Source: Bacteroidaceae bacterium
Lineage (GTDB): Bacteria; Bacteroidota; Bacteroidia; Bacteroidales; Bacteroidaceae
Assembly (NCBI GenBank): GCA_017448825.1
Contig: JAFSKR010000013.1
Span: forward strand, 1 to 56,183
DNA: 56,183 nt
Direction of reading: 5' to 3'
Position numbers and translations under genes: made by a program. Positions 13,272 through 56,183 of the stretch are shown piece after piece (within the stretch, counting starts at the first letter, position 1; each line of letters starts with the position of its first letter). Below the pieces are notes generated by a model. The model ran no database searches. It was not told where the DNA came from and saw only the letters and a list, made by a program, of their open reading frames with translations.

Positions 13272-14485
13272 TGAAAAGGTTTCTGTTCATATTGTTTGTA
13301 CTGTGTTCTGCTGTGCTTAGTGCCCAGACGTCCGACTCCATCATGGCAGCCCATCTGCGTCAGCGCGATGTGCCCATCAGTGACGGTAATTCGGTGGTGC
13401 TGCTCAAGACGGGACACGAGAAGTTCGTTGATTTGTTTGAGGCGGTTAGAAACGCCAAATCGTTTATCCATCTGGAGTATTTTAATTTCCGCAACGACTC
13501 CATTGCCGGACTTCTCTTCCACCTTCTCGCACAGAAAGCCGCCGAGGGTGTGGAGGTGCGTGCCCTTTATGATGCCTTTGGCAATGCTTCTAACAATCAG
13601 CCAATTAAGCATCACATGCACGACTCCATCAATGCGTTGGGCATTCATCTGGTCAAGTTCGACCCTATCCGATTCCCGTGGGTTAACCACATCATCCCGC
13701 GTGACCACCGCAAAATTGTGGTCATCGACGGTGAGGTGGCATACACGGGCGGCATGAACGTGGCTGACTATTACATTGAGGGCATCCCTGAAATTGGCGA
13801 CTGGCACGATATGCATATGCGCATCGAAGGGCCTGCCGTGAACGACCTGCACGAGATTTTTTGCCGTATGTGGTACAAAGCAACTAAGGAGTATTTGACA
13901 GGGGCGAAATACTTTCCTGCTCATAAGAAGGTTGGTAATCAGCGAGTCGCAATCGTTGACCGCCATCCTCTCCGCAGTGCAGATGCCATCCGCGACCTTT
14001 TCGCTGAGATGCTCAATACCGCTCAGCATAAGGTGCTGCTTATCAACCCCTATTTCGTGCCTACCCACCGTGTGCGCAAGGCACTGAAACGTGCCATTGA
14101 CCGGGGAGTGGAGGTGCAGATTCTCCTTTCTGCCAAAAGCGACATTCCGCTCACACCCGAGGCTTCCCATTATGTGGGCAACAACCTTGCCAAGCGTGGT
14201 GCCAAGGTCTATCTCTTCCACGGCGGTTTCCACCACACCAAAATCATGATGGTCGATGACCTCTATTGTACCGTCGGTTCCAGCAACATGGATGCCCGTT
14301 CGTTGCGTTGTGACTATGAGGTCAACACTGTGATTTTCAGTCAGAAGACGACTGATGAACTGACCCACCTTTTCAACGAGCAACTCAAGTCGTCCACACA
14401 GATGGAGAAGGGCTACTGGGGCACCCGTTCAGCGGGTAAGAAATTTCAAGGTTGGTTCGGCAACTTGTTGACCCCCTTCTTGTAG
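13271..14485 (+). CDS. Exported phospholipase D / cardiolipin synthase-like protein
   Basis: A 404-residue protein with two HKD motifs (HxKxxxxD): His146-Lys148-Asp153 in DHRKIVVIDG, and His322-Lys324-Asp329 in FHHTKIMMVDD. Each is followed by the family GG/GS-N segment (TGGMN, VGSSN). Bacterial cardiolipin synthases usually begin with two membrane spans; this one has a cleavable-looking signal peptide (MKRFLFILFVLCSAVLSAQ) and would act in the periplasm or be only loosely attached. It could make cardiolipin or act as a phospholipase; sequence alone does not decide. Its start codon overlaps the stop of the SGNH gene. Confidence 0.88.
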   Translation: MKRFLFILFVLCSAVLSAQTSDSIMAAHLRQRDVPISDGNSVVLLKTGHEKFVDLFEAVRNAKSFIHLEYFNFRNDSIAGLLFHLLAQKAAEGVEVRALYDAFGNASNNQPIKHHMHDSINALGIHLVKFDPIRFPWVNHIIPRDHRKIVVIDGEVAYTGGMNVADYYIEGIPEIGDWHDMHMRIEGPAVNDLHEIFCRMWYKATKEYLTGAKYFPAHKKVGNQRVAIVDRHPLRSADAIRDLFAEMLNTAQHKVLLINPYFVPTHRVRKALKRAIDRGVEVQILLSAKSDIPLTPEASHYVGNNLAKRGAKVYLFHGGFHHTKIMMVDDLYCTVGSSNMDARSLRCDYEVNTVIFSQKTTDELTHLFNEQLKSSTQMEKGYWGTRSAGKKFQGWFGNLLTPFL

Positions 14486-49114: not shown

Positions 49115-49163
49115 AAGAGAGGGCAACCATCCATTGACGGGGTGGTGCCCTCTCTTGTTTTTT
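49115..49163 (+). terminator. Terminator after the GH2 gene
   Basis: Perfect 11-bp stem AAGAGAGGGCA (49115-49125) with 49146-49156, followed by a T6 run at 49158-49163. The left inverted repeat of the island begins within it. Confidence 0.85.
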
Positions 49164-49190
49164 GAACTGTAGCACTGTAGCACTGCAACG
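49154..49190 (+). repeat. Left terminal inverted repeat of the island
   Basis: A 37-nt sequence containing GAACTGTAGCACTGTAGCAC then TGCAACG, with an internal GTAGCACT duplication. Its reverse complement lies at 56095-56130, with only one T fewer in the T run. Confidence 0.9.
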
Positions 49191-49240
49191 CCGTGTGCCT
49201 GCCACTTGCGAACGTTCCTCGGGGTCTTTAGTCCTCCCGC

Positions 49241-49630
49241 TCACTTTCGCTTCTTCTTGTTCACGTTGATGGGCGTGCTCTTCGGGAAGGCGATGGAGTA
49301 GGCGGCATCGAGGGCTTTCAGGTCGATTTGCTGGTAGAAATTGATGCCGAGCCGAATGGCGACGATTGCCCTGAGCAGTTCGCGGTGCTTGCGGGGGTAG
49401 AGCCGAGGTGGCGGCAGTTCGTCCCATCCGCACACATCCTCATCGAGCATCAGAGAAGCCTGATGGCACACCTCCCAGATGAAGTCGTCGTTGGCTTCGC
49501 TGCCAAACCAGTATTGTAGCACCCTGCGGATGCAGAACCGCCTGTACTGCTCCCGGAAGAGCCGCCTCGTGTGCTCCAGCCGAAGCCAGAGCTGCACGAA
49601 GCATGCCTGAGTGTTCTTGATTTCCATCAT
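49241..49630 (-). CDS. Island protein of unknown function (129 residues)
   Basis: A basic, Arg/Lys-rich protein with several Trp residues and a Lys-rich C terminus (NVNKKKRK); no signal peptide or membrane span. I do not recognise it. It is the last gene of the minus-strand island, after the primase gene; the 44-nt gap between them holds two CACTTATCACTT copies. Confidence 0.6.
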   Translation of the reverse strand: MMEIKNTQACFVQLWLRLEHTRRLFREQYRRFCIRRVLQYWFGSEANDDFIWEVCHQASLMLDEDVCGWDELPPPRLYPRKHRELLRAIVAIRLGINFYQQIDLKALDAAYSIAFPKSTPINVNKKKRK

Positions 49631-49674
49631 AACGTAGCAAATTTTTCACTTTTCACTTATCACTTTTTCACTTA

Positions 49675-52164
49675 TCACTTCCCTCCGAATTTCTGTTTAT
49701 ACGCTTCCGTCTTGCAGTAGCCGCCCGTCACCTCGTCAAGGGCGATGTAACCGCGACTTGTCCATGTGCGCAGGGTGGAGTCGCCGTCTCCCGTGCGTCC
49801 TTGGCTTTGGCGCATCTGGCGGTACTGCTCGCGTGTGAACTCGTTGGGCAGGAGGTTGAGCAGGTTTTGGGGGCCTGATTGACGTTGCATCTCCACCTCC
49901 TCACGCAGTTCCTTTTCCAGCTGCTGACCGAAATAGAGCATCTTGCACCAGAGGTTATACTGCTCCGTCCAGCGGACGAAGTCGGCGATGGTCTTGTCCC
50001 ACTTGTATCCATGCGCCACGTAGAGCACCATGCCTTTGAGCCATGCGATGACGTTGGCACGATAGGAGAACACCCTGTAAGCCTCCGAGTCGTAGAGCTT
50101 TGCCGTGTCTTGGTTCTCCTGCTTCATCTCCAGCGAGAGCTTCTTGGCTTCGCGGCATTCGATGAGGCCGTTGGCGGCATCGAGGCGGTCGATGTAGGGC
50201 TTCAGCGCTGTGGCGAAGGAGTGGTCGTAGATGCCCAAGATGGGGGCGGTGTCATCGTCGTCGTCCGAACGGATGATGGTGCTGATGTCGAGTCGGCTCA
50301 CGGTGCCGTCGTTCACCATCTTGTGGAAGAACTTGCGGGCATTGGGCGGAGTGGTGGAGGCGTTGAAGTTCCATCGCAGAGGCGCAATGCCACTCACCGA
50401 GTCGGCACCCACACGCTCCTGACCTGCCATCGAATTGTCGAACGCCTTGCGGATGAGCAGCCCCACTTCATCCGCCGTTCCTTTCGATGTCACCTTCTTC
50501 AGGGCATCTATCTCGTCCACAATGGTGTAGATGTACCGTTCGCCGTTGTTGTGGGCATCCACAATGCGCTGGTTGAACACCGCATCGGTCAGGTTGTCGA
50601 TGAGCATCTGGATACAGATGTCCGTCGGGCGTGGGTCTTTCTTCTGCTTCGCACCCGGGTTCTTCTGCTTCCACTCCGCTTCACGCTGGCGGTTGGGAAT
50701 GTCGCGCTGACGGATGTCCTCCATGATGAACTCGATGGGCTTCCTGATGCTGCCCTTGCCAATGCTCTGCCGTCCGATGAGCACGTTCATGAAGGTGGCC
50801 TCATGCTCCACGTTGTCCCAGTAGCGGAACTTCACGCCGTGCAAGTGGGCAGCCAGCGCAGGGAACACGGCATTCGCCACGGCGGGCTTGTAGAACCAGG
50901 GCACATTGCGTGTGAGCAACTTGATGAGTGCCGGCAACCGCTTGGGCATGGGTGGGGGAGCGGTCAGCGTGCCGCCACAAGCCTTCACGCCAGCCATCGA
51001 TTTCAGGGCAGCGAGCACTTGCTTCAAGCGGTAGGGCATCCCCTTACGAGGCTCCTTCAGCGCGTTCTCGATGGTCTTGCGCCATTCAAGACCCTCTCCC
51101 CGCTCCCCCTCTATGGGGAGAGCCTTGCTACGCTCATGTTTCGAGAGCCAGTAGTTGGGAATCACCTCCAGCATCTTCTCCAGAGAATAGTCGCAGATGC
51201 TACGCAGGGTCATCGCCAACTCGTAAGTCTTCACGTTGCGGTCACCCTCCACAGGCTCCTTGCCGTCGTTGAACAGCTCCCAGTACTTCTGGATGATGTC
51301 GGAGAAGGGCACCCCGTTGTAGTGAAGACCAAGACCTCCTCTGTCCTGTCGGACATCTCCCCCTCCAAGACCCCCTCTGTCCTGTCGGACATCTCCCCCT
51401 CCAAGACCCCCTCTGTCCTGTCGGACATCTCCCCCTCTATGGGGAGAGCCTTCCGGCTTGTTCTCAATGAATTCCTCACCGCACAATGCCTCACATCCCG
51501 CATGAGAGAGGGTTGGGGTCTTTTCCCCCAATGCCTCACATCCCGCATGGTCTCTCCCCATAGAGGGGGAGATGCCCGAAGGGCAGAGGGGGTCTGCGGT
51601 CCTTGCCTGCTCAAACACCTCATCGTCCAAGAACAGCAACTCACGCTCGTCCGCCGTCGTGGTGAAGAACACCCGTGTGATGTCCTTCGCGCCCTCGTCA
51701 AACTTCACGCCCAGCAGGTCGCTTGCCCACCGCAGGTTCTCCTCCTGCGAGAGGTCTTCATGGCGACGGAACACAAGGTGGTAGCCCTTCGATGCCGAAC
51801 GCTCCAGCATGAGCAACCCCAACGCCTCCCGTTTCTCCATCACCAATGCCGGCACACTCGCCATCTTCTCATCCATCCAAGCCTTCCGCTCCTCGTCCTG
51901 CAACCCTTCAGGAGCCACGAAGTCGATGTCCATGCCCACCGAGCGCGACGGGGTCTTGCATCCTCTGAGGGCACCATCCTCGCCAGGGATGCACGAGTAG
52001 TTCATCTGCACGAGCCGATGCTTCTGCCGAGCGTCGCCCTCCCTCACCTGTTTCAGAATCGCCTTCTGCTTCTCACTTCCGCGCAGACGCAGATACTCGT
52101 CTCGCGAGAGGACGGGGCGCATCTTCTTCGCCCCATCCTGATAATAGATTTGAAAAACACTCAT
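49675..52164 (-). CDS. Primase/VirE-like protein with DUF3987-type P-loop domain
   Basis: An 829-residue protein. The N-terminal part resembles the BT4734/VirE_N archaeo-eukaryotic primase-like domain: acidic VGMDIDF (Asp79, Asp81) and SKGYHLVFRRH (His129). The C-terminal half is a P-loop ATPase with Walker A IGRQSIGKGS (463-472) and Walker B YTIVDEIDAL. Such proteins start replication of mobile elements. Residues about 188-279 are an odd low-complexity insert between DDEVFEQ and HYNGVPF, encoded by inverted and tandem DNA repeats, with a smaller related insert near residues 346-360 (KALPIEGERGEGLEW). Both keep the frame. The start at 52164 follows the upstream gene by a few nt. Confidence 0.82.
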   Translation of the reverse strand: MSVFQIYYQDGAKKMRPVLSRDEYLRLRGSEKQKAILKQVREGDARQKHRLVQMNYSCIPGEDGALRGCKTPSRSVGMDIDFVAPEGLQDEERKAWMDEKMASVPALVMEKREALGLLMLERSASKGYHLVFRRHEDLSQEENLRWASDLLGVKFDEGAKDITRVFFTTTADERELLFLDDEVFEQARTADPLCPSGISPSMGRDHAGCEALGEKTPTLSHAGCEALCGEEFIENKPEGSPHRGGDVRQDRGGLGGGDVRQDRGGLGGGDVRQDRGGLGLHYNGVPFSDIIQKYWELFNDGKEPVEGDRNVKTYELAMTLRSICDYSLEKMLEVIPNYWLSKHERSKALPIEGERGEGLEWRKTIENALKEPRKGMPYRLKQVLAALKSMAGVKACGGTLTAPPPMPKRLPALIKLLTRNVPWFYKPAVANAVFPALAAHLHGVKFRYWDNVEHEATFMNVLIGRQSIGKGSIRKPIEFIMEDIRQRDIPNRQREAEWKQKNPGAKQKKDPRPTDICIQMLIDNLTDAVFNQRIVDAHNNGERYIYTIVDEIDALKKVTSKGTADEVGLLIRKAFDNSMAGQERVGADSVSGIAPLRWNFNASTTPPNARKFFHKMVNDGTVSRLDISTIIRSDDDDDTAPILGIYDHSFATALKPYIDRLDAANGLIECREAKKLSLEMKQENQDTAKLYDSEAYRVFSYRANVIAWLKGMVLYVAHGYKWDKTIADFVRWTEQYNLWCKMLYFGQQLEKELREEVEMQRQSGPQNLLNLLPNEFTREQYRQMRQSQGRTGDGDSTLRTWTSRGYIALDEVTGGYCKTEAYKQKFGGK
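51088..51122. repeat. Truncated copy of the intragenic palindromic repeat
   Basis: CTCCCCCTCTATGGGGAGAG (51103-51122) is identical to 51429-51448, and the preceding AAGACC-like segment matches the same arm with a shortened middle. It lies in the primase gene, in frame. Confidence 0.8.
51329..51436. repeat. Three tandem 36-bp units inside the primase gene
   Basis: Units 51329-51364, 51365-51400 and 51401-51436 are identical except for one T/C difference in the first. Each encodes GGDVRQDRGGLG in frame. The unit is part of the inverted-repeat arm that ends at 51448, so the array looks like local amplification of that arm. Confidence 0.92.
51401..51596. repeat. Inverted-repeat-bounded insert of about 196 bp in the primase gene
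   Basis: Arms 51401-51448 and 51552-51596 are inverted copies, with a perfect 23-bp inner match (51426-51448 with 51552-51574) and divergence only at small hairpin tips. Between them a 21-bp direct repeat occurs at 51484-51504 and 51529-51549, encoding HAGCEAL twice. The structure resembles a small palindromic or MITE-like element accepted in a coding sequence. Confidence 0.82.
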
Positions 52165-52169
52165 AATCG

Positions 52170-52535
52170 TTAATTACAGATTAGTTCTCTCAATACTTTT
52201 TGTGCAATCGCACTCGCCTGACGCACCAACTGTTCGGGCAACTTCCTTATCTGTTCCTGTGGCATCGAGAAATAAAAATAGTACCTTCCGTCCTGCCCCA
52301 GGCTGAACGAACTATTGTCGTCGCGGAATATCGCCTTGTTCCTGACACGTCGGGGAAGTTCGGTGACATACATGTTCCCATCACGCAGACGCTGTACCTT
52401 GCATTGTGCCACGAAGGATTCCAATTCCACGTCCTCGCAACACTCGAAGTCCATCGTGCGGAGTCCGTTTCCCAACTGGGCGAAGACCATCATGCCTTCC
52501 ACCGTGACCTGTCTCTCTTTTAGTAATTCTTTCAT
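52170..52535 (-). CDS. Island protein of unknown function (121 residues)
   Basis: A soluble protein with no signal peptide; alternating beta-like segments (GNMYVTELPRRVRNKAIFRD, DGRYYFYFSM) and a helical C terminus (ASAIAQKVLRELI). Not recognised. It ends 5 nt before the primase start, so the two are probably translated from one mRNA, and it may be a replication accessory or DNA-binding protein (inference from position only). Confidence 0.65.
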   Translation of the reverse strand: MKELLKERQVTVEGMMVFAQLGNGLRTMDFECCEDVELESFVAQCKVQRLRDGNMYVTELPRRVRNKAIFRDDNSSFSLGQDGRYYFYFSMPQEQIRKLPEQLVRQASAIAQKVLRELICN

Positions 52536-52728
52536 ACATTAAATTTATTAATAAAAAATTAATTAAAAGCATCGTGCGCACTTTGCCGTAGTCGATGAAG
52601 ATGTGTTTGCAACCACATTCCTCATGTCCGTGAGAGATTGTTGGAGCGGTTCAAAGATGTGGGCACAAAAAAGTTGCGCCCCGAAAGTTCAGAAGCCATT
52701 TTGTGTGCTTCTTTTCCTTTCGACGGTG

Positions 52729-52758
52729 CAAAGTTCGGGAGAATGCCACAAAGCCAAA
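52729..52758 (-). promoter_or_regulatory. Probable promoter of the primase operon
   Basis: On the minus strand TTTG (52755-52758), 18 nt, then GAACTTTG (52729-52736), one mismatch from TAnnTTTG. The leader would be about 190 nt. Confidence 0.5.
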
Positions 52759-52822
52759 AATGCAAGAAAAGGAAAGTTCTGTCAAAGTTTTGTTGGCACT
52801 TTGTCAGTTGAAAATCAGCAAG

Positions 52823-52855
52823 AAAAAAGACGCTGACAAAACTTGCCAACGTCTT
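52823..52855 (-). terminator. Terminator after the unknown gene pair
   Basis: On the minus strand AAGACG (52850-52855) pairs with CGTCTT (52827-52832), extended by partial inner pairing, and runs into T6 (52823-52828). Confidence 0.6.
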
Positions 52856-52881
52856 CCCTCTTTTAATTTTCTATTTTCTTG

Positions 52882-53844
52882 TCAGAGTGGCGTCCCCGAT
52901 TGTGCCGAAATGATTTTCTCGATTCTTTCACATTGTTTTTTCGTGAATATGCAGTTTGACACTCCGAAATCCTTACACTTAGCAATGTAGTCACGGTGTG
53001 GCTTGCCCTCGATGGCATCACTGATTTTACTCACATTGTTTTCAATCAGTGTGTCTTTCTTGCCGTCCTGCTCTATGTGTATGTCCTTCATCAATCCCAA
53101 GACGTTGCACACCATTTTCAGATTCTTCCCCCAAGCATTGTTCCGAGGCTCCATTTTTCTCAGCAGTTCCATCATGCCGTTCTCCGCACAGATGGTTCGC
53201 CAGATGGATTCGTATGTATCCCATTCGATTCTGCACAATGCCCTCACTCCTTTCGTCAACTCCAACACATCCTTCACCATCGCCTCAATCTCTCCACGTG
53301 CCACCTCATCTATACGTTCCAAAGAGTTCTCCATCTGCATGTAATCGGTGATGGGCAGAACAATTTCCTTTCCTTCATTGTCTTGTTTAACACATGTGAA
53401 AGCCTTGATCAGCTTCTCTGGGTATTCCTTGTATGTGGGGTTTGTGATAATCTTTGCAAGTGCCCTGCACATGGCTTTGTGAGGATGGGTTTCCACATCA
53501 TTGCCAGCGTCGCACAATTGAGAAAACAGCACCGTCATCACACACAGAGCCGTAGCCGTCGCTGCATCCTCGCTTCGTTTCGTCAGCTCCTCGCCATGCT
53601 GAAAAATGCTGTACCTATCCATCAATTCCTTCATGAAGAAGTGCATCTCCATGTCACGGTGCTCTGGAACTTCCGATAGCCGCACACGCAACAGTTCTGC
53701 CTCGTTCCATATTTCCACAGGGTTCAACTCGCCCTTCAACTCTAACAGAGAGAGTGTTTCCACCCATGTACGAAACAAATCGTCACCGAGATAACGATGA
53801 CGACAACTGTCCAACTGTTCCTGTGTGAATCTAACAAATGGCAT
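52882..53844 (-). CDS. Unrecognised island protein (320 residues), second of a pair
   Basis: A largely helical, soluble protein with no signal peptide. Visible are an N-terminal FTQEQLDSCRHRYLGDDLF, a central stretch ATALCVMTVLFSQLCDAGND that may be a buried helix, and a C-terminal cysteine-containing segment (AKCKDFGVSNCIFTKKQCER). No known catalytic motif is seen. It starts 2 nt after the 305-residue gene, so the two are almost certainly co-expressed and may work as a complex. The location beside an HNH endonuclease makes phage defence one possibility (inference). Confidence 0.72.
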   Translation of the reverse strand: MPFVRFTQEQLDSCRHRYLGDDLFRTWVETLSLLELKGELNPVEIWNEAELLRVRLSEVPEHRDMEMHFFMKELMDRYSIFQHGEELTKRSEDAATATALCVMTVLFSQLCDAGNDVETHPHKAMCRALAKIITNPTYKEYPEKLIKAFTCVKQDNEGKEIVLPITDYMQMENSLERIDEVARGEIEAMVKDVLELTKGVRALCRIEWDTYESIWRTICAENGMMELLRKMEPRNNAWGKNLKMVCNVLGLMKDIHIEQDGKKDTLIENNVSKISDAIEGKPHRDYIAKCKDFGVSNCIFTKKQCERIEKIISAQSGTPL

Positions 53845-53846
53845 AA

Positions 53847-54764
53847 CTATTCAAACACGTCTGGCAAATTCTTCATGAATATTTTCACCTTGTCGTATGG
53901 TGTCGTTGCCATGTTCTTCAGCGTCGTTTGGTCACCAACCAACTGTTCGAAGACTTTATCGTCCAGTTCCTTCACTACGTATTGCCCTTTGCCACAAAAG
54001 ATACGTTTTTCCCCATTCGGGTACATGACAATCCATGCTCCTGTTCCCGAAGCACCATCCACTAGTGCTTCCTTCCGTTCCTTGTTTTTCTCAAGGTCGA
54101 GAGCCCCTCCTTCGTCTGCACCAAACGAAAATTCGAGGTCACTATTCCAATCATCACGCACTTCTGTCAAGAATCCATCCATCACCTTTCTCAAGCGTTC
54201 AAGATTCAAATGCGGGAAATGGAATGTAATCTTTTTGAACCCTTTGGGATATTCTTTTACAATCCGCCAGAACTCATGTTTCGGATAAGGAGCCTCCAAC
54301 AACACCTTCAGGCGGTAGCGTTTCAGCAACACGTTCAATGTTGCCTCCAGAATGCCCGCCACCGTTTGTGTCTTCTGGAACACCTTCGTCTTCTTCTCAA
54401 TCGCAATCCGTTGGATTCCCTTTCGGTTATCAATAATGACCAGACAATTTCTATAGTCTTTCACAATTTCCTCCTTCAGTTGCTCATTCGTGATGCTCAG
54501 GTTCCGCACGTTCGCCACCCTCATCACATACACCCCATCCTGCGGCTCCACAATCTGCTTGTGCCAATACTCCCATCCCCGCTTGTTCACAAAGTGCACC
54601 GTCTGCCGATAGTCAAAATCCAACACCTCATCCAGAATCTCCTGCCGCTTCGCAAAAGACTCCTCCACATCCACCGCTCTCCAATCGGGGAACTGAATCT
54701 GATACTGCTCGTCAGGTTCAATGATGCGGGCAAACTGATAGTTGTAGATAACAAAATTAGCCAT
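53847..54764 (-). CDS. Unrecognised island protein (305 residues), first of a pair
   Basis: A soluble protein beginning MANFVIYNYQFARIIEP, with mixed strands and helices, a Lys-rich segment IEKKTKVFQKTQTVAG in the middle and a glycine-rich DGASGTGAWIVMYPNGEKR near the C terminus. I could not place it in a family. It is 27 nt downstream of the 104-residue gene and 2 nt upstream of its partner. No membrane segment or secretion signal is seen, so it acts in the cytoplasm. Confidence 0.72.
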   Translation of the reverse strand: MANFVIYNYQFARIIEPDEQYQIQFPDWRAVDVEESFAKRQEILDEVLDFDYRQTVHFVNKRGWEYWHKQIVEPQDGVYVMRVANVRNLSITNEQLKEEIVKDYRNCLVIIDNRKGIQRIAIEKKTKVFQKTQTVAGILEATLNVLLKRYRLKVLLEAPYPKHEFWRIVKEYPKGFKKITFHFPHLNLERLRKVMDGFLTEVRDDWNSDLEFSFGADEGGALDLEKNKERKEALVDGASGTGAWIVMYPNGEKRIFCGKGQYVVKELDDKVFEQLVGDQTTLKNMATTPYDKVKIFMKNLPDVFE

Positions 54765-54791
54765 GTATGTTCTATTTTTACTTCTTAAACC

Positions 54792-55106
54792 TTATCTGCA
54801 AATTCTGTTTGGTGTAAACTCTGAACAGTATGCTTTTGTGAGTGCTTTCTCATAGTATGCAGACAACGCCTCCTTGGCAAAGTTGGTCTCCAAGTCAATT
54901 AGTCTCTCCAATACAAGCTGTTTGTCTCCCCTATGATACTGATTAATCCATTCCAAATCCTTATCCCACACTTCCTCATCTGACACGTAACGAGTGAGAA
55001 TATCACTCTCCAAGACATCATTCCTTGAGTAATATCCGGGAAGCCATTCTGCAATGAAGTTCCAGAAACTGTGATAAGTTTCATTGTCTTTGTCTATATC
55101 TTTCAT
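54792..55106 (-). CDS. Small island protein (104 residues) overlapping the HNH gene
   Basis: An acidic, Tyr/Trp-rich soluble protein beginning MKDIDKDNETYHSFWNFIAE. The start at 55106 overlaps the end of the HNH gene by 26 nt, suggesting translational coupling; an upstream in-frame ATG at 55214 would deepen the overlap with no supporting features. Not recognised. Coupling to a nuclease gene would suit an immunity or regulator protein, but nothing in the sequence proves this. Confidence 0.6.
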   Translation of the reverse strand: MKDIDKDNETYHSFWNFIAEWLPGYYSRNDVLESDILTRYVSDEEVWDKDLEWINQYHRGDKQLVLERLIDLETNFAKEALSAYYEKALTKAYCSEFTPNRICR

Positions 55107-55854
55107 AATGTATTGATAACAAGTCTTTGTCTGGTGAGAATTTCTCTGGCAATCTGACAGGTGTTCCTGTGAGCCTCTGCAAATATTGGCGGAACATCTC
55201 TTCTTGAGTGGCATCTATCATTTGCTCTGAGATGACGATGGCGTAGTCGGGAGTCACCGTCATCATGTATTTATCGAAAGCACGATGGAATAATGGGTTC
55301 ATGCATAATCCATTCTTCGGATTCGTACGGTTCTTCACATCTTCTTTCCATGAAGATATATGACAAGCTTCCAACAATGAGGGCAGGTTGATGCCTGTGA
55401 TACAACAACGGCTCTCGTAGGAGCAGAGCACGGCATCGTGGAAAAACTTCTGGTTTACACGTTGTCGTACGATAGTTGTGCGTTCAGCCCCTTCTGGAAG
55501 GTTTCGCTGGTCAATAGCCGAAGATACCTCAATAGGCTGGTGCTTGAATTCTGCGATAATCTTCTCACTCTCATAAGCCAACTTCTCAGGATTATCAAAA
55601 AAATCATTCCAAACTTCTTCATCCATCTTGCTTGTATGAGCCAAGCCCACAATTCCCTTTTCTCTTAACACAGGGTCGAAACTGCCAAGATTGCCAATTT
55701 TCAGATTCAAGGCAGCAGGTGTACGACCAATTATTTGAGCGTATTCCTTAATCATCGGATGCCTTGCGCTGCTGTTTCTGAACGGAATCTTGCAGTACAC
55801 GTTCAAGGCAACGATGAGTTGTTCTCTTGTCCAATTATTTGCCTTACCACTCAT
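55081..55854 (-). CDS. HNH endonuclease (HNH_2 type)
   Basis: A 257-residue protein. The C-terminal half has the HNH nuclease core: a Cys pair region YESRCCITGI, LLEACHISSWKED with the first His, then NPKNGLCMNPLFHRAFDKYM with Asn and the last His. The N-terminal half (ANNWTREQLIVALNVYCKIPF, LNLKIGNLGSFD) is a helical domain often found in putative restriction endonucleases of this type. No methyltransferase is near, so it is either a modification-dependent or solitary nuclease (inference). It is the first large gene of the island. Confidence 0.85.
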   Translation of the reverse strand: MSGKANNWTREQLIVALNVYCKIPFRNSSARHPMIKEYAQIIGRTPAALNLKIGNLGSFDPVLREKGIVGLAHTSKMDEEVWNDFFDNPEKLAYESEKIIAEFKHQPIEVSSAIDQRNLPEGAERTTIVRQRVNQKFFHDAVLCSYESRCCITGINLPSLLEACHISSWKEDVKNRTNPKNGLCMNPLFHRAFDKYMMTVTPDYAIVISEQMIDATQEEMFRQYLQRLTGTPVRLPEKFSPDKDLLSIHYERYRQRQ

Positions 55855-55908
55855 GCCTTCGTTAGATTCCCATTATTCTTATTGTTCTCATTATTCTTGT
55901 TATTCCAA

Positions 55909-55983
55909 TTATTCCACTCTCTCCCGTTCATCCACCTCCTCGGGGAAATCCGCCAGTTTTATTGCTTTTTTCTTCTTCGCCAT
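55909..55983 (-). CDS. Possible 24-residue peptide at the head of the island operon
   Basis: ATG at 55983 opens a frame reading MAKKKKAIKLADFPEEVDER then four more residues before TAA. It lies about 16 nt after the predicted transcription start and 54 nt before the HNH gene; the gap is a low-complexity AATAATG-rich stretch. It could be a true small protein, a leader peptide or chance. Confidence 0.35.
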   Translation of the reverse strand: MAKKKKAIKLADFPEEVDERERVE

Positions 55984-56005
55984 ATCAGTTTATTTTCTTT
56001 TTTTG

Positions 56006-56036
56006 CAAAGATACGACATTCTTTCCACATCCCCAA
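56006..56036 (-). promoter_or_regulatory. Promoter of the island HNH operon
   Basis: On the minus strand TATCTTTG (56006-56013), with TTGG 19 nt upstream (56033-56036). It would drive the HNH, 104-, 305- and 320-residue genes as one unit ending at the terminator at 52823-52855. Confidence 0.65.
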
Positions 56037-56094
56037 CAAATCCTTCGCAAAAAATTTGTCCGTGCCTGTTGTCACAGCAAAAATGGTGCCGTTG

Positions 56095-56130
56095 CGTTGC
56101 AGTGCTACAGTGCTACAGTTCAAAAACAAG
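56095..56130 (-). repeat. Right terminal inverted repeat of the island
   Basis: Reverse complement of 49154-49190 with one T missing in the T run; contains two AGTGCTAC copies. Beyond it the window ends in AT-rich sequence with no gene. Confidence 0.9.
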
Positions 56131-56183
56131 GGATGGGAAAGTCAAAAGAAATTTTTATATTTATATATATAATATTATATATA

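Follow-up and report, generated by a model that had tools for sequence, protein, structure and literature searches.

A Bacteroidaceae bacterium carries a run of genes, among them one for a possible primase, between two inverted copies of a short repeat, and this arrangement raises the question of whether the repeats are the borders of a mobile island or have another role within it. The stretch analysed (the window) is 56,183 nt long and its features are collected in Table 1. The inverted arms 49159–49191 and 56094–56126 are complementary at 33/33 positions, and exact 33-nt inverted matches are expected about 4e-13 times in 7.7 kb of random sequence; the longer reading, 49154–49190 against 56095–56130, was confirmed by eye to hold a single T difference. 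The inverted repeat of the original prediction is thus real. Its observation that all genes inside lie on one strand was also borne out (seven ORFs were taken as genes, 49241–55854, all minus), and neither an integrase nor a transposase was found among the seven using Pfam, NCBIfam, PADLOC and PHROGs scans.

Table 1. Features of the island in the window (positions are those of the window).
Feature	Position	Strand	Remarks
Terminator-like hairpin and T-tract	49139..49162	+	stem 49139–49151, tail CTCTTGTTTT; follows presumed GH2 gene, just outside left array
Left repeat, iteron-like array GCGTTGCAGTGCTACAGTGCTACAGTTC	49154..49191	-	co-directional with operon, 49 nt past p1 end
p1, 129 aa, partner gene of primase	49241..49630	-	five helices in predicted model
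Putative primase-helicase, 829 aa	49675..52164	-	AEP-like N-domain, disordered linker, ATPase-like region, C-terminal winged-helix-like domain
Coding linker of primase, residues 187–280	51325..51606	-	built from dispersed genomic repeats
p3, 121 aa, small gene upstream of primase	52170..52535	-	no family match
p4, 320 aa	52882..53844	-	no family match
p5, 305 aa	53847..54764	-	no family match
p6, short ORF	54792..55106	-	inner ATG assumed as start; no Pfam family
HNH endonuclease, restriction-type	55081..55854	-	PADLOC HNH model E 3e-80
Right repeat	56094..56183	+	arm 56094–56126, variable spacer, start of AT-rich palindrome; contig end cuts putative two-armed element

The same scans named the HNH endonuclease and left most of the other genes without a family. 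No methyltransferase was detected among the seven scanned genes and none matched a family of PICI master regulators (rpr/stl or alpA), several of the proteins being without any family. The predicted model of p1 matched no PDB fold at E 0.001. The p4 and p5 genes occur together in three relatives (72–86% identity) and distantly in a fourth, and in relatives distant p5 homologues adjoin the restriction systems SacI and HpaII. The left repeat had been expected to overlap the terminator of the neighbouring gene, which we take from its sequence to be a GH2, beta-galactosidase-like gene. A hairpin does precede the repeat; the region holds 12 terminator-like sites versus 7.0 in shuffles. No confirmation was obtained for the promoter expected beside the right end: the scan, which does not cover Bacteroidales promoters, returned 6 sigma-70-like sites versus 6.1 in shuffles.

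In the case of the primase, Pfam BT4734-like_N was matched by 4/6 aligned proteins (best E 0.0012), the window protein itself having no match, and the best Foldseek matches were Prim-Pol structures at E 0.05 at best; this weak family and fold evidence hints that the 829-aa protein is primase-like, and to that extent the predicted primase stands. The window primase type had no Toprim match and Pfam named no ATPase domain in it; the motifs of the ATPase-like region were read by eye, and DUF3987 was found in two members with a second type of C-terminal domain (C-domain). The full-length model was poor (mean pLDDT 57). Its predicted C-terminus, within a winged-helix-like domain at about residues 771–820, has the order H-H-H-E-E with pLDDT 75–82 over residues 781–820. 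Matches to the primase family were found in 38/45 genomes of the genus, and at loci L271 and L272 no primase ORF was obtained. Peptide patterns matched 1 and 66 stretches of viral contigs, none of which was confirmed, a search of 72,556 plasmid records found no relatives, and 50,697 phage records gave one weak match (27.6%).

Both window repeats consist of arrayed G[CT]T[AG]CAGT octamers. Many relatives have such an array behind the primase gene or behind p1, and the left copy is its counterpart. The right repeat stops 57 nt short of the contig end and is probably the first arm of a truncated two-armed element, consisting of an array, an AT-rich palindrome and an inverted array. Among the 15 genus relatives fetched, six have such an element upstream and a seventh has a truncated one; the element sits 0.8–6 kb upstream of the primase, and at the 3′ end there is only the array. 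The window island probably continues on contig C52, where two genes at the contig start (for a 181-aa-type protein and an HU-like protein) are probably the part of the island past the window; here we infer the C72–C52 join. In a contig-overlap test C54 and C12 shared a 19-nt overlap, and C40 and C12 shared a 10-nt overlap too.

These observations bear on the idea of terminal inverted repeats, according to which a non-autonomous, transposon-like unit would end at the two repeats and be moved in trans by a recombinase. The exactness of the inverted match, the lack of a recombinase among the genes found inside and the different genes that adjoin the island gene set in relatives would all suit such a unit. 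In relatives, however, the equivalent of the right copy lies inside the island, followed by an inverted second arm and more island genes; the same presumably holds for the window, where the contig ends and the further genes would be on C52. The repeats also occur alone, and in relatives arrays lie within the primase gene itself. We consider terminal repeats highly improbable, and the inverted repeat is probably not the island border that had been predicted. The flanking motif TGTCAACCAAAATCAGGAAAAGACA was rejected as an outer terminal repeat, its core being present on one side in 18/62 elements and on both sides in none, with a background of about 2% per 110 nt.

The proposal of a mobile island fared better. 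The gene set has different neighbours in relatives, a given site can be occupied in one genome and empty in another (three stretches upstream of mutS2 being at most 2 kb), and no recombinase was found; the part that was not supported is the role of the repeats as terminal inverted repeats. The cargo slot holds different restriction-modification sets in five relatives and a methylase-type protein in a sixth, cargo ORFs having been family-scanned in 6/16 regions only. No integrase was found among the 18 scanned cargo ORFs of these six relatives, and no attachment site was recognised. In Bacteroidales the repeat is probably the mark of a whole family of islands with restriction genes that occupy different chromosomal sites.

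The arrays follow the type of C-domain that the primase carries. With an array spacing that was relaxed after the sequences had been seen, and with duplicates L048, L053 and L054 left out, a co-directional octamer array was present within the primase ORF or at most 700 bp downstream in 16/16 genus primases with the window's C-domain type versus 0/34 with other types, four of the 34 loci having no downstream sequence and some being short; an earlier, stricter pattern gave 12/16 versus 0/34. No antidirectional arrays were seen at genus primases. The array lies inside the linker in 8/15 genus relatives sharing the window's C-domain type, and the linker of the window primase has none. When all 74 clustered primases were grouped by C-domain, octamer arrays were found in 22/25 (a window cluster that includes five loci fetched by the repeat), 0/20 and 1/29; locus L162, from a different C-cluster, has an octamer array. 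The original prediction had named related strains with the same genes but without the repeats as evidence against it: there are none among the 16 window-type primases of the genus, whereas 3/4 window-type primases from other genera have no array.

The second C-domain type has an array of its own, made of GTCA units. Under a rule that was also chosen after the sequences had been seen, a GTCA array was found at the stop in 0/25, 16/20 and 0/29 members of the three clusters, that is in 16/20 versus 0/54 over all 74 primases, duplicates L053 and L054 included, and in two of the four exceptions no sequence is available past the stop; a first count, on 63 of the 74, gave 16/18 versus 0/45. Three genomes (G015, G037 and G051) hold both primase types, each with its own array. 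The loci in these counts are related, such that Fisher p-values overstate their independence, and the association could partly be linkage, with a 3′-terminal array being inherited together with the end of the gene. Linkage does not explain the upstream element, nor a match in the one-contig genome G275, where a solitary element at 3.52 Mb has 39 nt identical to the array behind the primase at 0.81 Mb.

The repeat recurs elsewhere in the genome as small, dispersed intergenic elements that look like origins. Within genome G000 arrays at other sites outnumber its one island, a count that rests on searches and fetched stretches; a plain replicon does not predict this surplus. Among 110 stretches chosen by a 17-mer alone, nine had a primase or p1 gene, and in all nine a co-directional copy lay either in the linker (three) or at most 135 bp past the primase or p1 stop (six); one of them, L119, also has an upstream two-armed element. 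Cultured carriers of the repeat include the Xylanibacter (Prevotella) ruminicola strains D31d, Ga6B6 and KHT3 (loci L087, L099, L113 and L119). The exact window 17-mer occurred in only 3/31 sampled genomes, the window's own included, and a strict pattern for the element of dialect 2 matched in 1/25 genomes. Two stretches in viral contigs carry the 17-mer, one of them (L262) as a full two-armed element, and no island genes were seen in the ORFs of these two. Repeats at sites unlinked to islands had been named in advance by the original prediction as evidence against it, and such copies were found.

Such dispersal would be expected if the arrays and two-armed elements were MITE-like, spread by a host transposase with no tie to the primase, so that the island merely collected some of them. 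The primase linker gathers other dispersed repeats too, and a tandem-repeat MITE of Porphyromonas gingivalis, BrickBuilt, resembles the elements in being dispersed, intergenic and built of tandem repeats with inverted ends in a member of the Bacteroidales (PMC4596501); it differs in having a 23-nt unit, and the abstract describes no primase link. A freely spreading MITE would not, however, readily account for arrays in a single orientation at 16/16 window-type primases of the genus and at 0/34 of the others, nor for a second matched type, and among copies within one genome the arms are kept while the interiors differ (by eye). We regard this explanation as distinctly unlikely. Regulation offers a further explanation, in which the arrays would serve as operators or RNA sites for autoregulation of the operon, or as its promoters in both directions, and would not be origins. 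In support, the cargo operon of relatives begins at the element, which also stands upstream of primase-less operons at L213 and L218 (restriction or methylase genes by ORF reading), the arrays are co-directional with transcription, and the elements fold as stem-loops (z -6.9 to -15.5 in four examples). Against this, some solitary elements occupy sites where no restriction genes were read in the ORFs, and the array type tracks the helicase C-domain; a regulatory role is unlikely. A phase-variable invertible promoter was also considered because the AT-rich core is flanked by arms that point towards each other, and was set aside: in the small sample of L070, L074, L075, L076 and the window, the interior has, by eye, the same orientation towards the operon.

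We lean, with modest confidence, towards a replication module of the PICI, P4 or pRN1 kind that carries swappable defence cargo, has no integrase that we could find and is accompanied by solitary origin-like copies in the chromosome. According to this model, the island core would consist of the primase-helicase, its partner p1 and the octamer arrays, which would most likely be binding sites of the primase-helicase, and the array behind p1 and the two-armed element would act as iterons and origin. The C-terminal domain would bind the arrays, the AT core would then melt, and the ATPase and primase domains would then start replication. Exchangeable restriction genes, here the HNH endonuclease, lie between core and element, and elements of this kind are also found by themselves elsewhere in the chromosome. 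We infer origin function, binding, excision and integration.

Each of the known systems shares part of this design. PICI origins are described as an AT-rich region between two iteron sets, just 3′ of rep (PMC6092414), and 62 elements with two arrays flanking an AT-rich core have this anatomy. The window island differs from PICIs and SaPIs in that no integrase, master regulator or attachment site was found, in the solitary elements elsewhere in the chromosome and in a primase that, on weak evidence, is of the BT4734-like/AEP kind. The alpha protein of phage P4 is outlined as joining primase and helicase to a winged-helix domain for binding of origin repeats (PMC4234260), as predicted here for a single protein; that outline places its primase in the bacterial Toprim class, whereas no Toprim match and no P4 integrase were found here. 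ORF904 of pRN1 combines an AEP primase, a helicase and a C-terminal winged helix, a likeness that rests here on weak family and fold evidence, and its origin is summarised as a downstream stem-loop of ~100 nt with poorly conserved sequence (PMC4234260). That origin is without iterons and belongs to a plasmid, whereas here the system is chromosomal, the arms of the stem are made of arrays, and arrays are found again at the gene end and in the linker. The named families of AEP primases include a BT4734-like one, and mobile elements carry AEP primases with fused DUF3987 ATPase domains (PMC5862659); the passages concerned make no mention of cognate arrays or solitary elements.

A more speculative extension, which we hold to be doubtful, is a mobile system without a recombinase, in which the replication sites themselves would serve as joints. 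Domains, cargo and location would be exchanged by recombination at, or replication from, the arrays, and an array dialect for each C-domain type would let systems coexist unmixed in one genome. The arrays would then sit at module borders, namely in the primase linker, at the primase or p1 end and between the cargo and the HU-side genes, as well as in the solitary elements, a placement that we put forward just as tentatively.

If the replication module is real, it would provide a handle on how restriction-modification systems that lack their own integrase pass from one Bacteroidales chromosome to another, and it would tie an uncharacterised primase family to a defined DNA site. The two matched dialects of protein and site would make origin recognition directly testable. 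Outside the islands, bacterial chromosomes would carry small origin-like sequences, with possible effects on local replication.

The inverted repeat of the original prediction was recovered, its two arms matching at 33 of 33 positions and, with the flanking T/A tract, at 36 of 37 with one extra T. The seven ORFs between the arms all lie on the minus strand, in agreement with the claimed single strand, and no integrase or transposase was found among them; the proposed primase is a large protein, primase-like on weak evidence. The linker of this protein consists of dispersed genomic repeats read in frame (three tandem 36-nt units and copies of CTCCCCCTCTATGGGGAGAG), and a stretch of contig C32 from the same genome (G000) resembles it and contains four in-frame stops. 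Residues ~663-717 of MutS2 match scattered stop-containing stretches in several genomes.

Coordinates and content of island features and related loci
Feature	Location	Coordinates	Strand	Evidence or content
Left arm	window	49159-49191
Right arm	window	56094-56126
Primase linker	window	51325-51606		in-frame repeats
HNH endonuclease	window	55081-55854	-	PADLOC E 3e-80; Pfam HNH_2 E 4e-13
Linker-like stretch	G000:C32	5712-5909
Solitary uvrA-mutS2 element	L062 (G000:C54)	13630-13800
Element with downstream operon	L213	4475-8650
Element with downstream operon	L218	6610-8400
Stretch with element beside YYGD gene	L226	7423-8419
Cargo	L070			EcoRII enzyme + C5 methyltransferase (family scan)
Cargo	L073			SacI enzyme + C5 methyltransferase (family scan)
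Cargo	L074			HNH + two C5 methyltransferases (family scan)
Cargo	L075			DpnII + two methyltransferases (family scan)
Cargo	L076			HpaII + C5 methyltransferase (family scan)
Cargo	L078			one N6-methylase-type protein (family scan)

The repeat is itself an array of octamers, GTTGCAGT-GCTACAGT-GCTACAGTT. The 17-mer GCTACAGTGCTACAGTT has 11 exact copies in the 75 contigs of G000, ten of which point toward a contig end no more than 157 bp away, and most contigs ending at these copies terminate in AT-rich sequence. The exact 17-mer was present in 3 of 31 sampled genomes, the window's own counted, with variants used elsewhere. A 17-mer scan across named genome contigs matched at least 110 stretches, including at least 36 facing pairs separated by under 400 nt; the majority of these were judged by eye to enclose an AT-rich palindrome. 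Among the collected loci we distinguished 62 such two-armed elements, which measure 73-148 nt when their 13-nt inner arms are counted; 55 of them are 110-150 nt long. One strict pattern detected at least one element in 13 of 45 genus genomes and 18 of 399 genomes of the family sample, and gave no matches when run backwards as a control; it found none in G000, where the copies sit at contig ends. Because ten of the 11 copies are so placed, draft assemblies can hide these elements, and given the facing pairs and complete elements elsewhere, the window's right repeat is the first half of a two-armed element severed by the contig end.

A flank motif like TGTCAACCAAAATCAGGAAAAGACA, searched only with GACA facing the element, was found on one side of 18 of the 62 elements and never on both. 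The first arm of the solitary uvrA-mutS2 element lies inside a ~69-nt tandem duplication. At L213 and L218, elements lie directly 5' of operons that we read from sequence as coding for methyltransferases or type I restriction enzymes, and no primase was seen in either stretch. At L226 the element adjoins a YYGD gene, with no HU-like match in the stretch, and the outer neighbours resemble, by eye, genes beside the full island in two other genomes (G036, G056).

Primase matches occurred in 38 of 45 genus genomes, and the island gene p1 in 26 of 301 family genomes and 9 of 30 genera. Sixteen regions around good primase matches were fetched, all but one (L084) having the C-terminal domain type of the window. 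An array was present in the primase linker in 8 of these 15, and no more than 700 bp past the primase stop in 12 (8 by the strict pattern, 4 with 9-nt spacing); a complete two-armed element lay upstream in six, and a cut one in a seventh. A family scan of the cargo covered 18 ORFs from 6 of the 16 regions. The restriction cargo of the window is the HNH enzyme only, and this could be modification-dependent or an orphan; it showed weak similarity, far under the model cut-off, to a phosphorothioate-DNA restriction model. No methyltransferase was seen among the scanned neighbours of its gene. Relatives of p4 and p5 occur in L070, L072 and L074, with distant ones in L078, and p5 also has distant homologues in the island with SacI (E 1e-11) and in that with HpaII (E 1e-10).

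Several primases share 54-62% identity with the window's in the N-domain and 24-29% in the C-domain, whereas others share 30-53% and 71-77%, respectively. The primases therefore look modular, with domains probably exchanged at the linker. Four further primases (L077, L263, L266, L270) have a related C-domain and an N-terminal part without a reported match to the window's. Among genus primases, 16 of 16 of the window C-type and 0 of 34 of other types had a co-directional array, placed inside the ORF or up to 700 bp downstream of it (12 of 16 versus 0 of 34 with a first, stricter spacing); no antidirectional arrays were found in or after genus primases. When 74 primases were clustered by C-domain, the octamer array accompanied 22 of 25 in the window cluster, five of the 25 having been fetched through the repeat itself, 0 of 20 in a second cluster and 1 of the 29 remaining primases; a GTCA array at the stop accompanied 0 of 25, 16 of 20 and 0 of 29, respectively. 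Two members of the second cluster match Pfam DUF3987, and three (L263, L268, L274) have upstream AT-core elements whose unit resembles the arrays of that cluster. Both C-types coexist in three genomes (G015, G037, G051), each with its own array. Further array dialects in other clusters are possible; by eye, short tandem repeats also seem to surround the primase stop in L394, L405, L406, L400, L397 and L402.

Two observations speak against strict pairing: a window-type array lies 133 bp past a primase of another cluster (L162), and of the four window-type primases outside the genus, three lack an array. Linkage and shared descent can account for some of the pattern at the 3' ends but leave unexplained the matching upstream elements and a solitary second-dialect element in G275, a genome in one contig, which has an exact 39-nt match to the array behind one of the primases of that genome. 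The genes flanking this element are, as read from sequence, presumably uvrC and dtd. The primase-helicase C-terminus has a predicted H-H-H-E-E domain, and its weak Foldseek matches, listed without the matched part of the model, include proteins that we take to be winged-helix regulators. Published work describes origin DNA bound through such a winged-helix domain in P4 alpha and pRN1 ORF904 (PMC4234260), PICI origins with an AT-rich region between two iteron sets, by rep (PMC6092414), and replication of the satellite PLE beginning at iterons bound by PLE RepA (PMC7145576). The two-armed element resembles the PICI origin in anatomy, with arrays around an AT-rich core. By this anatomy the element would most likely be an origin and the remaining arrays additional putative binding sites, while a regulatory site or a plain MITE is also possible. 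Without a known integrase, an island with such an origin may move by recombination at shared arrays or by carriage on other elements, and both fit.

To the left of the island lies a GH2 gene whose best matches (62-82% identity), putative orthologues, were read in 19 relatives: tblastn found no window island genes in any fetched stretch, and the 4.2 kb immediately downstream (1.9 kb for one stretch) contained no array. A second site lies between genes read from sequence as presumably uvrA and mutS2. Here, G040 carries a full island and G000 the solitary element, as judged from a 19-nt overlap between contigs C54 and C12 (C40 and C12 also have one, of 10 nt). The mutS2-upstream stretches of 20 other genomes (three of 2 kb or less) contained no window-type array or island gene; uvrA lies upstream in eight of them, one of which (G041) shows, by eye, an other-dialect AT-core element between the two genes. 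That the filled site differs between G000 and G040, and that the sites lack islands in the other genomes read, argues for gain of the island.

Past the element, the islands of six relatives carry a YYGD gene (181-aa type; no Pfam family matched), and four of these also an HU-like gene, whose G012 copy matches Pfam HU-HIG. Contig C52 of G000 begins with both genes (69% and 80% identity to G040), preceded by an arm of opposite polarity, and its first 480 nt align with the G040 stretch, 353 of 407 aligned positions being identical. The window right arm is the closest in G000 to the G040 arm (89.9%, versus 70-87% over shorter alignments for eight others). We therefore infer that C52 is probably the right neighbour of the window; no overlap was found between the ends of these contigs.

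Searches of open-access literature, covering few subscription journals, returned no array/C-domain pairing of this kind, which is weak evidence of novelty. The component parts are of known kinds; their combination, of integrase-free restriction islands, cognate array dialects and solitary origin-like elements, looks new.
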